DNA of 28,121 nt from the IMG/VR virus record IMGVR_UViG_3300028417_000015, positions 1 to 28,121 of that record; one strand, written 5' to 3'. The DNA is from a virus. The notes beneath the pieces are model-generated. The model saw nothing but the letters and a program-made list of their open reading frames with translations, was not told the DNA's origin and did no database searches. Below, in pieces: positions 2,413-6,069 of the stretch (its first letter is position 1; each line of letters begins with the position of its first letter). The position numbers and the translations under genes are program-made.

Positions 2413-2759
2413 CAAGTCTTGCGACCGAACAAATCAAACGGCCGGAGGTAATCCAAGACATCGCCACGGCGATTGAATCGGCGATCATAGAGCATGGCAC
2501 CTTGGGTGGTCAGGATGCCGCTGATATCTCTCTGTTGGCGGCCGACATCGTCTGGGAGCGTTTTGCTGGCGAGCAAGTGTATGTGCAACAACAGATCAGC
2601 AAAATCCACCGAGAGATCTACAATAGATTGTGCCGCCCACATGCAACCCTGGAGGGTGTTGCCAAGGATTACGGCTACACAGTGCGCTACATCCGGATCA
2701 TCTACAAGCAAATGGCCGTCGCCGAAAACAACCGATTACAGCCTGGCTTGTTTGAGTAG
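2409..2759 (+). CDS. mor: Mor-family transcription activator
   Basis: 116 residues; GGAGG lies just upstream and the ATG overlaps the previous stop (ATGA). The Mor/C signature is visible: 'GEQVYVQQQISKIHREIYNRL' (beta strand and helix of the dimer domain) followed by a helix-turn-helix 'TLEGVAKDYGYTVRYIRIIYKQM'. In Mu, Mor dimers bind the middle promoter and recruit RNA polymerase through its alpha and sigma subunits. The gene is the last of its operon, and a 280-base non-coding region follows it, as expected if Mor acts on a promoter there to start late transcription. Confidence 0.88.
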   Translation: MTSLATEQIKRPEVIQDIATAIESAIIEHGTLGGQDAADISLLAADIVWERFAGEQVYVQQQISKIHREIYNRLCRPHATLEGVAKDYGYTVRYIRIIYKQMAVAENNRLQPGLFE

Positions 2760-2761
2760 AT

Positions 2762-2791
2762 TTGACATCCTGCCCGGTTTTGTGAGATACG
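2762..2791 (+). promoter_or_regulatory. Promoter-like sequence after mor
   Basis: A perfect -35 hexamer TTGACA (2762-2767) is followed at 17-18 bases by a weak -10 (GAGATAC region, best match GATACG at 2786-2791). A good -35 with a poor -10 fits an activator-dependent promoter. Transcripts from here would run straight into the terminator at 2822-2857, so it may make a short RNA or be controlled by read-through. Confidence 0.45.
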
Positions 2792-2821
2792 GTAAGACTA
2801 CGAAACAATACCCTGTCGCCC

Positions 2822-2857
2822 AAGCCTCTTCCTTGCCGGAAGGGGCTTTCTCTTTTT
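2822..2857 (+). terminator. Intrinsic terminator after mor
   Basis: AAGCCTCTTCC (2822-2832) pairs with GGAAGGGGCTT (2838-2848), 11 bp with one G-T pair, loop TTGCC, then TTTCTCTTTTT. It closes the middle operon, and it also lies about 30 bases after the promoter-like sequence. Confidence 0.8.
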
Positions 2858-3041
2858 GAATAATCTCCCTTAGCTATGTCAGCGCCACCGAATATTCTTA
2901 CCCCTACTTGACCGGCAGGGTCGAACCAATTACCTCCTGAAGCAGTCGGTGGAGAGGCCACTCTCAACCGGCACCCTGCCTGCCGCTTTTGTAAAGCCGA
3001 CCCCATCACATGGTCGGCTAATCGAGTAAACGGGGCAAGCC
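2858..3041 (+). promoter_or_regulatory. Non-coding leader region ahead of lysis genes
   Basis: No convincing gene is present. The region holds a perfect palindrome GAATATTC (2890-2897), a -35-like TTGACC (2908-2913), an anti-Shine-Dalgarno-like ACCTCCT (2932-2938), a hairpin of CGGTGGAGAG (2947-2956) with CTCTCAACCG (2961-2970) interrupted by one G-A mismatch, and a hairpin of AGCCGACC (2995-3002) with GGTCGGCT (3012-3019). CCACCGA (2885-2891) can also pair with TCGGTGG (2946-2952), which would compete with the first hairpin. Being just after mor, this is the best place for the Mor-dependent late promoter and leader. Confidence 0.5.
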
Positions 3042-3629
3042 ATGCCAGAGAATCTATACAGCGGAGACTTTGAGAGGTTTTTTAAGCGGGTGTTTGAATC
3101 TGAGGGCGGGCTCTCTATGGATCCGGCAGACTCCGGCAACTGGAGCGGCGGCAAGGTTAATGTCGGCGAACTGAAGGGCACCCGGTACGGCATCTCTGCA
3201 GCACAGTTCCCGGGGCTGGATATCAAAACCCTCACCGTCGACCAGGCGCGTGAGATTTACTATCAGCAATACTGGCTTTCGCCAGGCTTCTGGCGGCTAC
3301 CTGCACCGCTGTCGATCCGCGTGGCCGATGTCGGTGTTACTGCTGGCCAGGGCACGGCAATTAAAATGCTGCAGCGGGCGGTTAATGTGGTTTGCGCTGG
3401 CGAGGTCGCGCCACAGCGACGGGCTCCATGGCGGCAAGCTGTTGCGGATTTGTTGAGCGGTAGGCCATTACGTGTCGACGGTAAGCTCGGCCCGATCACC
3501 GAAGGCGTTATCAGGACCTGTCCGTATCATCGAGCCCTACTTATTGCGTTCCAAGGCGAAGCTTACATCCACTATCGCCGCTTAAACCCACTCTACATAC
3601 CAGGCTGGCTGGAAAGGCTTGGCTCATGA
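3042..3629 (+). CDS. Endolysin, glycoside hydrolase 108 (N-acetylmuramidase)
   Basis: 195 residues, started at ATG 3042 with a GGGG site 8 bases upstream. The GH108 signature is clear: 'FFKRVFESEGG' with the likely catalytic Glu21, then 'D-ADSGNWSGG', 'KGTRYGISAAQFP', and 'LTVDQAREIYYQQYW'. The C-terminal half carries a peptidoglycan-binding-like 'LRVDGKLGPITEGVIR'. It would cut the glycan strands of the cell wall at lysis. No signal peptide is visible, so it probably needs a holin for export. It is the first gene of the lysis cassette and overlaps the next gene by an ATGA. Confidence 0.88.
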   Translation: MPENLYSGDFERFFKRVFESEGGLSMDPADSGNWSGGKVNVGELKGTRYGISAAQFPGLDIKTLTVDQAREIYYQQYWLSPGFWRLPAPLSIRVADVGVTAGQGTAIKMLQRAVNVVCAGEVAPQRRAPWRQAVADLLSGRPLRVDGKLGPITEGVIRTCPYHRALLIAFQGEAYIHYRRLNPLYIPGWLERLGS

Positions 3630-4009
3630 CCTATCAACTCTACGCTCCAGCCAGTTTTATAGCTGCCTCTGCTGAGGTTCGTGCTGCGGTGGTCAATGGC
3701 TGCGGCGCGGGTGGTTGGAAGATCGACCTGGTTCCGGACTCCATTTATGGCCTCGACGTTTCCGATGTCTGTGACATCCACGATTGGATGTATGAGGCTG
3801 GCGAAACCCTGGCAGACAAGGAAGAGGCTGACCGGGTGATGCTCAACAACCTGTTGCGCAAAATCAACGCTAAAACAAAGTACGCCTGGCTCCGCTGGCT
3901 GCGCCGTAAACGCGCATTGAAATATTACCAGGCCGTTGCCGAATTTGGAGCTCCAGCGTTCTGGGCAGACAAAAACAAACCAGAAAACATCATCAACGTC
4001 CCGGCGTAA
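3626..4009 (+). CDS. Phospholipase A2-signature protein of the lysis cassette
   Basis: 127 residues, coupled to the endolysin by an ATGA overlap. Residues N24-G-C26-G27-A-G29-G30 match the calcium loop of secreted phospholipase A2 (Cys-Gly-x-Gly-Gly), and C49-D-I-H52-D53-W-M-Y56 matches its active-site helix (Cys-x-x-His-Asp-x-x-Tyr). The only two cysteines, 26 and 49, fall where the PLA2 Cys29-Cys45 disulfide would be. A later acidic residue, D69, may complete the site. There is no signal peptide. Related hypothetical proteins occur in other prophages, to my recollection without a proven role. Lipid hydrolysis during lysis is inferred. It may instead be a catalytically dead fold. Confidence 0.7.
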   Translation: MTYQLYAPASFIAASAEVRAAVVNGCGAGGWKIDLVPDSIYGLDVSDVCDIHDWMYEAGETLADKEEADRVMLNNLLRKINAKTKYAWLRWLRRKRALKYYQAVAEFGAPAFWADKNKPENIINVPA

Positions 4010-4028
4010 CCGGGAGAAGGAGGCAAAC

Positions 4029-4658
4029 ATGAAACCCTGGTACAAATCGAAAACACTGTGGACCAACGCCCTGGGCGTAGCGGCAATGCTGTTGCAATCC
4101 GAAGTTGGATATCTACTGCCTCTGGAATACCAGGCGGTCGGTTTGGCGGCAGTCAACATGCTGCTCCGAACAACGACCAATGCCCCGATCGCGTGGAAAC
4201 CGCCAGGCTCAGGCGTTGTTGGTGTCGCATTGATTGTTGGCAGCTTAATGCTGGCTCCGCTCATCACCGGTTGCTCGGCGCTCCCTGATTTTATGCTGCC
4301 CACTGCAAAAATCGCCAACACAATGCTCTCGGCACAGATCGCCACCATGGAAGCCGCCATGATCCTGCCTGACGATGATAGCCGAGCCGATGTCCTTGCT
4401 GCCCTCACTTACGTGGCCTCACAAGCGACCCCGGATGAAGCGTTAAGTCTAGACGAGATAGAAGTCCGCATCTTATCTGACCTGGCTAAAAACCCCGCTT
4501 ACGACACAAGTCTACCGGCAGTCAGGATGTTTATTGATCAGTTCATGATTTCATCCGAGAGCTATATCGAGACTCAAAACTCATTGTTTAAAAAGGACAG
4601 TGTGCAGTTTACCAACTATCTGGCATCGATGATCAACGCCCTGCGACAGGTTGGGTAA
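4029..4658 (+). CDS. Holin-like membrane protein with internal lipobox
   Basis: 209 residues; ATG 4029 follows GAAGGAGG. Residues 1-50 'KPWYKSKTLWTNALGVAAML' and '--LAAVNMLLRTTT' resemble short membrane proteins of phage lysis cassettes. After 'PIAWKPPGSG' a second hydrophobic stretch ends in LITGC, a good lipobox, at about residues 75-85. The remaining 120 residues are acidic and helical with no membrane segment. This could be a fusion of a holin-like segment with an outer-membrane lipoprotein (o-spanin-like), a protein cut by signal peptidase II, or two products from an internal start. It stands where holin and spanins are expected. Confidence 0.65.
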   Translation: MKPWYKSKTLWTNALGVAAMLLQSEVGYLLPLEYQAVGLAAVNMLLRTTTNAPIAWKPPGSGVVGVALIVGSLMLAPLITGCSALPDFMLPTAKIANTMLSAQIATMEAAMILPDDDSRADVLAALTYVASQATPDEALSLDEIEVRILSDLAKNPAYDTSLPAVRMFIDQFMISSESYIETQNSLFKKDSVQFTNYLASMINALRQVG

Positions 4659-4661
4659 CAC

Positions 4662-4871
4662 ATGCCAGACCTGTTTGACCGAGCCCAGGAGGCAAGTGAG
4701 CGGCTGTTGGCCGATGCCCTGGGCGAGCACCAACGGAGCAGGCCGGAGCACAAAACCAGCCGCGTTGATTGCCTCGATTGCGAGGAGCCGATTCCAGAGG
4801 CCCGGCGTAAAGCAGCGCCGGGTTGCCAACGGTGCATTAATTGCCAGCGGATTTTTGAGGGAGGATGTTGA
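4662..4871 (+). CDS. TraR/DksA-type zinc-finger protein
   Basis: 69 residues. A C4 zinc finger is formed by C37-L-D-C40 and C58-I-N-C61 within 'CLDCEEPIPEARRKAAPGC', the signature of TraR/DksA C-terminal fingers. The N-terminal helix (residues 1-30) is short, as in TraR, which binds the RNA polymerase secondary channel without ppGpp. Such genes are regular members of Mu-like late operons, between lysis and packaging genes. RNA polymerase modulation is the family role; it is not proven here. The stop overlaps the next ATG in TGATG. Confidence 0.85.
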   Translation: MPDLFDRAQEASERLLADALGEHQRSRPEHKTSRVDCLDCEEPIPEARRKAAPGCQRCINCQRIFEGGC

Positions 4872-5203
4872 TGGAGGATTATACCGCCTGGAAGTTCTGG
4901 CTCGATGTAGCACAACTTTTAGGGATTATCGGTGTGGGAGCTTACACCTGGTGGACAAACAGGAGCAAAGCAACTCAAAAAAAGTTTAAAGGGCTAGAGG
5001 AGCGGATCAGCGTGGTCGAGTTTGAAGGGTCGAGTTTGAAAAAAGCATTTAAAGCCCGGCCGCCCTGTCTGCACCATGCCGAGTTTGACTTACGGCTGAG
5101 AGGAGTCCAGGAGGGTGTCAGCAACATCGAAGGGCGCATGGTTGGGATTGGTAACAGCCTCGACCTAATCCAGACCCACTTGATTGCCGGAGGCAAGAAA
5201 TGA
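4871..5203 (+). CDS. DUF2730 family membrane-anchored protein (Mu gp25-like)
   Basis: 110 residues from ATG 4871, which follows GAGGGAGG by six bases; an ATG at 4865 is too close to that site. One N-terminal membrane helix (about residues 8-27, 'FWLDVAQLLGIIGVGAYTWW') is followed by a basic stretch and a coiled-coil-like heptad region. This matches the DUF2730 type found before the small terminase in Mu-like phages. Function unknown; it may be lysis-related since an inner-membrane anchor with a periplasmic or cytoplasmic coiled coil resembles i-spanins in layout. Confidence 0.75.
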   Translation: MEDYTAWKFWLDVAQLLGIIGVGAYTWWTNRSKATQKKFKGLEERISVVEFEGSSLKKAFKARPPCLHHAEFDLRLRGVQEGVSNIEGRMVGIGNSLDLIQTHLIAGGKK

Positions 5204-5496
5204 GTTTTAAAACGATCCTCACAGAAGATCAGCGACTGGTCATGCTACGCGCCCTAGAACAAGACGCCGGGTACGACCTCAATGAATCGATCTTGCAGTC
5301 TTTTCTCGGAGCCTATGGTCACTCGGTCAGCCGCGACAAAGTGCGCACCGAGTTGCGCTGGTTGGAGGAACAGGGTCTGGTCACGATCAACGAGGTCGCC
5401 GCGATACTGGTGGCCACCCTTACTGGCCGTGGTGCCGATGTCGCCAAGGGGCTTGCTGTAGTTGATGGCGTTAAACGCCCGAGACCGGGGGCATAA
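5200..5496 (+). CDS. Mu gp26-like phage protein
   Basis: 98 residues, joined to the upstream gene by ATGA. The pattern 'RLVMLRALEQDAGYDLNESILQSFLGAYGHSVSRDKVRTELRWLEEQGLV' is a compact winged-helix-like fold seen in gp26-type (VpaChn25_0724-like) proteins of Mu-like phages, ending with 'ATLTGRGADVAKGL'. It always precedes the gp27-like gene in such phages. Its job is not established; a packaging or regulatory DNA-binding role is possible. Confidence 0.78.
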   Translation: MSFKTILTEDQRLVMLRALEQDAGYDLNESILQSFLGAYGHSVSRDKVRTELRWLEEQGLVTINEVAAILVATLTGRGADVAKGLAVVDGVKRPRPGA

Positions 5497-6069
5497 ATGG
5501 CAAAACAGCCCAAAAAACAGCAGTCGTCGATTGACCGGTTGCCGCCAGAGATCCGGGAGAAGCTCCAGGAGTTGCTCCGAGATCCACGCGTTACACAGAT
5601 GGACGCGACCCGGAAGATCAACAAAATCCTTGAAGCTGAAGGCCATGAGGAAAAGCTCAGCAAGTCGTCGGTTAATCGTTACGACCTGCGCATGCGTTCG
5701 GTCGGTGAGAATCTGCGGCAATCCCGCGAGATGGCCGAGATGTGGATCGACAAACTTGGCTCTGCGCCCCAGGGGCAAGTTGGCAACCTGGTCAACGAGA
5801 TCCTGCGCACCTTGAGCTTCGACATCACGCTGATCCTCCAGGAGGGCGGCATCGATGCCGAGAACGCCCCGGCGGTGGTCGACATGCTTAAAGGGTTGTC
5901 GCTAACCACGCAACGGCTGGAGAAAGCCGCCAACTTGAATCTGGAGCGTGAAAAAGAGATCCGCAAGCAGGCGTTGGAAGAGGCGGCAAGCAAAGTTGAG
6001 AAGACTGCCAAGAAGCAGGGAGTCACCCCGGAAACAATTGAAAAGATTCGCGAGGCGTTTGGTATCTGA
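5497..6069 (+). CDS. Small terminase subunit-like protein (DUF3486, Mu gp27-like)
   Basis: 190 residues. The N-terminus 'SSIDRLPPEIREKLQELLRDPRVTQMDATRKIN' followed by 'LSKSSVNRYDLRM' is the DUF3486 helix-turn-helix motif. The C-terminal half is helical and rich in Glu and Lys (coiled coil, residues 130-180). In Mu, gp27 acts with gp28 in DNA packaging as the DNA-recognition subunit. The stop overlaps the large terminase ATG in TGATG, supporting the pairing. Confidence 0.85.
   Translation: MAKQPKKQQSSIDRLPPEIREKLQELLRDPRVTQMDATRKINKILEAEGHEEKLSKSSVNRYDLRMRSVGENLRQSREMAEMWIDKLGSAPQGQVGNLVNEILRTLSFDITLILQEGGIDAENAPAVVDMLKGLSLTTQRLEKAANLNLEREKEIRKQALEEAASKVEKTAKKQGVTPETIEKIREAFGI

Follow-up and report, generated by a model that had tools for sequence, protein, structure and literature searches.

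In this study, we propose that a small gene of a Mu-like phage encodes an active, calcium-dependent phospholipase A2 (PLA2) which forms part of the phage lysis programme; we infer both the activity and the role in lysis, and consider them probable, if well short of certain. The proposal builds on an observed protein family, its fold, its invariant catalytic residues, the covariation of its two cysteines and the recurring proximity of its genes to endolysin genes. Lysis by phages of Gram-negative bacteria is taught as the work of holin, endolysin and spanin. If a catalytic phospholipase is conserved beside many endolysins of unrelated families, hydrolysis of lipids would join this set, meaning that phages may attack the membranes of their host chemically, besides its cell wall. 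In the open-licence literature we found no paper describing a phospholipase encoded in the lysis cassette of a phage; an earlier description is possible.

The lysis region and its genes

The window, i.e., the whole stretch of DNA analysed, is a virus record of 28 kb (28,121 nucleotides). Along it come the genes for Mor, for lysis, for a DksA/TraR zinc finger protein and for the small terminase subunit; the open reading frames (ORFs) beyond these look like genes of a large terminase and a portal. The Mor late-transcription activator typical of a Mu-like phage (positions 2409 to 2759, plus strand; PF08765, 33.6 bits with a cut-off of 24.9) lies upstream of the lysis region. The endolysin (3042 to 3629, plus strand) belongs to the GH108 (muramidase) family (PF05838, 57.9 bits, cut-off 21.2) and also matches phrog_315 (endolysin; E-value 2.7e-29); no relatives of it were found in IMG/VR. 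Its stop codon TGA (3627–3629) shares four bases, ATGA, with the start of the PLA2-like gene (3626 to 4009, plus strand), whose ATG stands at 3626, and a ribosome-binding-like GGAAAGG precedes that gene at 3611–3617. The ATGA junction with the endolysin that an earlier, sequence-only reading of this DNA had described is thus borne out. The PLA2-like product, identified by family, fold and profile matches, has 127 amino acids and only two cysteines (C26 and C49). Read directly, it displays neither a signal peptide nor a transmembrane segment, and its N-terminus (MTYQLYAPASFIAASAEVR) is devoid of a hydrophobic core.

The following gene (4029 to 4658, plus strand) encodes a membrane protein with no family match in Pfam or PHROGs. 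Its N-terminal part of ~58 amino acids is holin-like, and a relative of this part adjoins an endolysin-like gene in another phage; a second hydrophobic segment ends in a lipobox-like LITGC, followed by a tail of ~125 amino acids. The product resembles a fusion of a holin-like segment, which is a short stand-alone gene in one relative (L126), with a lipobox-bearing lipoprotein, and in two others (L030, L034) a lipobox ORF near the equivalent place is a separate gene. Relatives of this gene come after the PLA2 gene in several loci. A DksA/TraR-type zinc finger protein (4662 to 4871, plus strand; PF01258, 44 bits, cut-off 24.9) is encoded after the lysis cassette.

Active-site motifs and their conservation

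The PLA2-like protein carries two motifs on the plus strand: C26-G-A-G-G30 (3701 to 3715), the predicted Ca2+-binding loop, and C49-D-I-H52-D53-W-M-Y56 (3770 to 3793), with the predicted catalytic His and Ca2+-binding Asp. C26 and C49 are the predicted partners of a disulfide. Checked against the translation, the motif positions and the count of exactly two cysteines are as the sequence-only reading had them. When the window is translated in six frames, the joint pattern CGxGG..CxxHDxxY appears a single time, against an average of 0 over 200 shuffles, so that we reject a chance event; CxxHDxxY alone reaches a mean of 0.025 per shuffle.

In an alignment of 90 sequences (26 to 68% identity to the query), G27, H52, D53, D69 and N75 are invariant and Y56 (87/90), Y100, R93 and P37 almost so; C26 is present in 83 and C49 in 85 sequences. 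The invariant D69 (3830 to 3832, plus strand), the predicted dyad Asp, is missing from the signature first described. PLA2 of Streptomyces is known to use a His/Asp catalytic dyad, and in the HMM alignment with 1faz its residues His64, Asp65 and Asp85 correspond to H52, D53 and D69. The second Asp, D69, completes the dyad of the Streptomyces enzyme. The glycines of the calcium loop are less constant, G30 being found in 70/90 (78%) and G29 in 22/90 (24%) of the aligned relatives, and calcium binding is for that reason a prediction.

Consequently, the claim of a full PLA2 signature holds for H52-D53 and G27, present in all 90 sequences, while the loop is looser than claimed; homologues in which the His-Asp pair and the glycine loop are not conserved, named beforehand as the refuting outcome, were not found. 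Similarly, the claimed match in spacing stands within each motif but not between them, the distance from Cys to His being 26 residues versus 19 in the Streptomyces enzyme (Cys45-His64).

Whether the protein is catalytic or purely structural had been left undecided. We regard a catalytic role as far more likely, because D69 is also invariant and because TtaP, a relative of the DUF1353 family, has measured PLA2 activity (PMC11525133). The converse reading, a PLA2-fold protein acting as a structural protein or chaperone, derives from phrog_1158 ('tail assembly chaperone'), which matches 21 of 25 members. This label appears to have been carried over between large-phage records, and both the enzymatic nature of TtaP (PMC11525133) and the invariance of all three catalytic residues in 90 relatives speak against the reading, which we rate as very improbable. 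Several DUF1353 proteins of large phages (H11, H15, H20, H27 and others) bear the same label, in a family that keeps the His-Asp and Asp of PLA2. A conserved catalytic PLA2 would give a function to a class of genes that phage records at present annotate as hypothetical or as 'tail assembly chaperone'.

Fold and family relationships

The AlphaFold2 model of the 127-residue protein has a mean pLDDT of 92.7 and a pTM of 0.86. Its top Foldseek match is the PLA2 of Tuber borchii, at a modest E-value of 4e-3, and VIA-align gives Z scores of 10.7 (4aup), 8.6 (1faz), 8.5 (7ygk) and 8.2 (8k1w), whereas the best unrelated chain reaches no more than 5.5. The four best matches among solved structures are thus all bacterial or fungal PLA2, and the comparison with PLA2 structures that had been suggested as a check was passed. 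Helical proteins may score by chance in a fold search, which gives weight to the separate evidence from sequence: a profile of the family retrieves the PLA2 chains 1faz, 4aup, 7ygk and 8k1w by sequence alone (E-values of 5e-7 to 5e-4). Single-sequence PDB matches to unrelated proteins, e.g., an RNase H fusion, were displaced when the profile was used, the PLA2 chains then ranking first.

As a single sequence, the protein scores below the cut-offs of both PF09056 (14.6 bits; cut-off 29.4) and DUF1353 (PF07087; 17.9 bits; cut-off 22.5), and further single-sequence matches in Pfam, PHROGs and NCBIfam, including MqsA, were sub-threshold as well. One relative (L140) exceeds the PF07087 cut-off with 24.4 bits, and the profile-profile match to DUF1353 has a probability of 95% and an E-value of 2.6e-8. 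By these sequence comparisons, the phage family is a sister of DUF1353. The kinship to PLA2 put forward earlier is therefore retained as regards fold and active site, but the nearest kin are the bacterial and fungal group XIII/XIV enzymes and DUF1353 rather than animal secreted PLA2. The latter (PF00068) is not among the Pfam, PDB sequence or fold matches listed, an absence that is not in itself evidence.

Relatives are numerous in IMG/VR (27 in a first scan and 80 loci, many of them new, in a second, alignment-based scan), and a genome collection yielded 16. Among annotated phages, the sole close relative is encoded by Vibrio phage 1.097.O, where it is labelled a phospholipase A2 domain protein. 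Where genome records name a host for a locus, it is in most cases Gram-negative (Geobacteraceae and other Desulfobacterota, Vibrio, Halodesulfovibrio and Bdellovibrionales), and one contig of the genome collection is assigned to Gottesmanbacteria.

The cysteine pair

C26 and C49 are both cysteine in 83 of the 90 aligned proteins and both replaced, by Ala/Ala or Met/Gly, in five, which fall into two separately placed, well-supported clades. Judging from this distribution, the pair was probably lost in two independent paired events. In the remaining two exceptions (L084 and L118) the sequence is RCGxG, which suggests a shift in the alignment. Joint keeping and joint loss are what a disulfide predicts, and the C26-C49 bond suggested by the sequence-only reading gains support from this pattern as a predicted feature. 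The relatives devoid of the pair (L076, L079, L102, L094 and L098) keep the whole catalytic set, as do DUF1353 proteins, and could be adapted to hosts where disulfides do not form.

Genomic neighbourhood

To 50 viral records that carry the gene we applied simple ORF calling and profiles of four wall-hydrolase families, obtaining 21 matches: three of GH108, six of Amidase_2, three of Phage_lysozyme and nine of M15, two of the last lying under the curated cut-off. Eighteen of the 21 are located at most 1.5 kb from the PLA2 gene (in 17 records), where 2.4 would be expected by position, and all three GH108 genes are directly upstream of it. In 33 of the 50 records there is no nearby wall hydrolase of the four families searched. 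Genes sampled at random close to the PLA2 gene include 15 wall hydrolases among the 25 Pfam families listed, and a sample taken 2.5–6 kb away contains none among the 25 families listed. That the endolysins concerned are unrelated favours a functional connection over common descent of one cassette. The lysis-cassette setting first assigned to the gene is thereby confirmed, in the window by the overlap with the GH108 endolysin and elsewhere by its recurrence with unrelated endolysin families.

Some relatives are instead found among head or tail genes, in Vibrio phage 1.097.O and in Halodesulfovibrio loci. The three Halodesulfovibrio genome loci (L119, L120 and L121) encode shorter relatives, at least some of them beside tail-sheath-like genes, and one of these genomes has two copies. 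A catalytic PLA2 that travels in the virion and acts during entry, like the PLA2 domain of parvovirus VP1, rather than at lysis, would suit the position of the Vibrio phage gene between terminase and head-completion genes; in addition, one large-phage DUF1353 gene adjoins a particle-associated lyase, and a search of viral folds also gives PLA2 domains of parvoviruses and densoviruses, weakly. We nevertheless consider use at entry decidedly unlikely, given that the 127-residue protein stands free, with no fusion to a structural protein, and that wall hydrolases cluster beside the PLA2 gene in its relatives.

A catalytic PLA2 may also serve a non-lytic purpose, i.e., a change of host lipids, competition with bacteria or phages after release, or a block of superinfection. 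PLA2 domains act as toxins in bacterial competition (PMC3482391), and a DUF1353 PLA2 is part of a Salmonella virulence islet (PMC11525133). The translational coupling to the endolysin and the repeated pairing with different endolysins point to lysis instead, and we hold a non-lytic job to be unlikely.

DUF1353 genes occupy comparable positions in some phages: one stands beside a lysozyme gene in a Helicobacter prophage, another near an amidase gene in a Fusobacterium phage, and in phage IME207 the DUF1353 gene is the last, after lysin, holin and both annotated spanins. Three further DUF1353 genes inspected have no annotated lysis gene alongside.

Spanin genes often lie just after the endolysin gene, and the PLA2 gene takes this usual place; moreover, inspection by eye of positions 2700 to 6000 of the window revealed no spanin pair. 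The enzyme might accordingly substitute for spanins as breaker of the outer membrane in phages without Rz/Rz1. The case for such a substitution is weakened by IME207, in which both spanins are annotated ahead of the DUF1353 gene, by the small lipoproteins or transmembrane coiled-coil-like proteins encoded immediately before the PLA2 gene in several loci, and by the lipobox-like site in the product of the next gene here (4029 to 4658). We deem it very improbable and, in view of IME207, unlikely as a general rule. At five loci (L094, L098, L045, L061 and L068) the gene directly upstream encodes a small lipoprotein family of about 80–90 amino acids with an IGSVKRRF-like stretch, often overlapping the PLA2 gene by a few bases. 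These lipoproteins are possibly outer-membrane partners in lysis.

Proposed mechanism

We infer the following course for a PLA2 acting in lysis. The enzyme would be made late from the endolysin mRNA, translation-coupled by ATGA, and would build up in the cytoplasm, as it has no signal peptide; low free calcium and the reducing milieu would keep its activity low there. Once the holin opens the inner membrane, it would gain calcium, the C26-C49 disulfide and access to phospholipids. H52 and D69 would then activate water, calcium being bound by D53 together with the C26-G30 loop, and cleavage of the sn-2 acyl chain would release lysophospholipids and free fatty acids. These products may destabilise the inner and outer membrane and thereby help virion release, the enzyme being an accessory to the holin, endolysin and spanin set; its target may be either membrane or membrane debris already released. 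Counting against a lytic PLA2 are the variable G29 and G30, the 33 of 50 records with no nearby hydrolase, the loci among head and tail genes, and two results on TtaP: deletion of ttaP gave no envelope phenotype, and expressed TtaP did not overtly disrupt cells (PMC11525133).

Comparison with known systems

Animal secreted PLA2 (groups I/II) has the CGxGG loop and CxxHDxxY in common with the phage protein, as well as the spacing within each motif, yet has many disulfides where the phage protein has one cysteine pair. The group XIV/XIII enzymes (PF09056; Streptomyces violaceoruber 1faz, Tuber borchii 4aup) share the fold, the His/Asp dyad, the Ca-binding Asp and a cysteine immediately ahead of the motif on the catalytic helix (CxxHD). 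They differ by a processed N-terminus and two disulfides, the phage protein having one cysteine pair, no signal and a longer link between loop and helix. The Vibrio phage 1.097.O protein AUR87155.1 shows 39% identity across 89% of the protein, with a model TM of 0.82; its gene lies between terminase and head genes instead of beside an endolysin, and its PLA2 name stems from annotation only. Mycobacteriophage LysB offers a precedent for a lipolytic lysis-cassette enzyme devoid of an export signal: it is encoded downstream of the endolysin and cleaves lipid, but with a GxSxG active site and mycolyl-arabinogalactan as substrate (PMC8309991).

The typhoid toxin islet encodes TtaP, a DUF1353 protein and a proven PLA2, which cleaves PE/PG and a fluorescent PLA2 substrate; H70, D71 and D85 correspond to the catalytic set, D85A abolishes activity, and the protein has no overt signal and a role that is not known (PMC11525133). 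The islet also encodes a muramidase, TtsA, and according to the authors both resemble prophage proteins (PMC11525133). TtaP and DUF1353 share with the phage protein the PLA2 fold, the HD and Asp dyad, a length of about 125 amino acids and the lack of a signal peptide. On the other hand, the two conserved cysteines are absent from TtaP, and where the phage family has the NGCGxxG loop, DUF1353 shows a TDFAS-type segment. Just as TtaP shares its islet with a muramidase, the PLA2 gene in the window is paired with a GH108 muramidase, and the pair TtsA/TtaP may for this reason descend from a phage lysis pair. A conserved phage PLA2 of this kind would suggest where TtaP comes from and supply a working hypothesis on what it does. 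In its broadest form, which we put forward tentatively and think may well not hold, the proposal is that phages of Gram-negative bacteria widely possess a fourth type of lysis enzyme, a PLA2 switched on by calcium and oxidation when the holin fires, and that TtsA and TtaP are a co-opted phage lysis pair; if true, this co-option would supply the role that is missing for TtaP.
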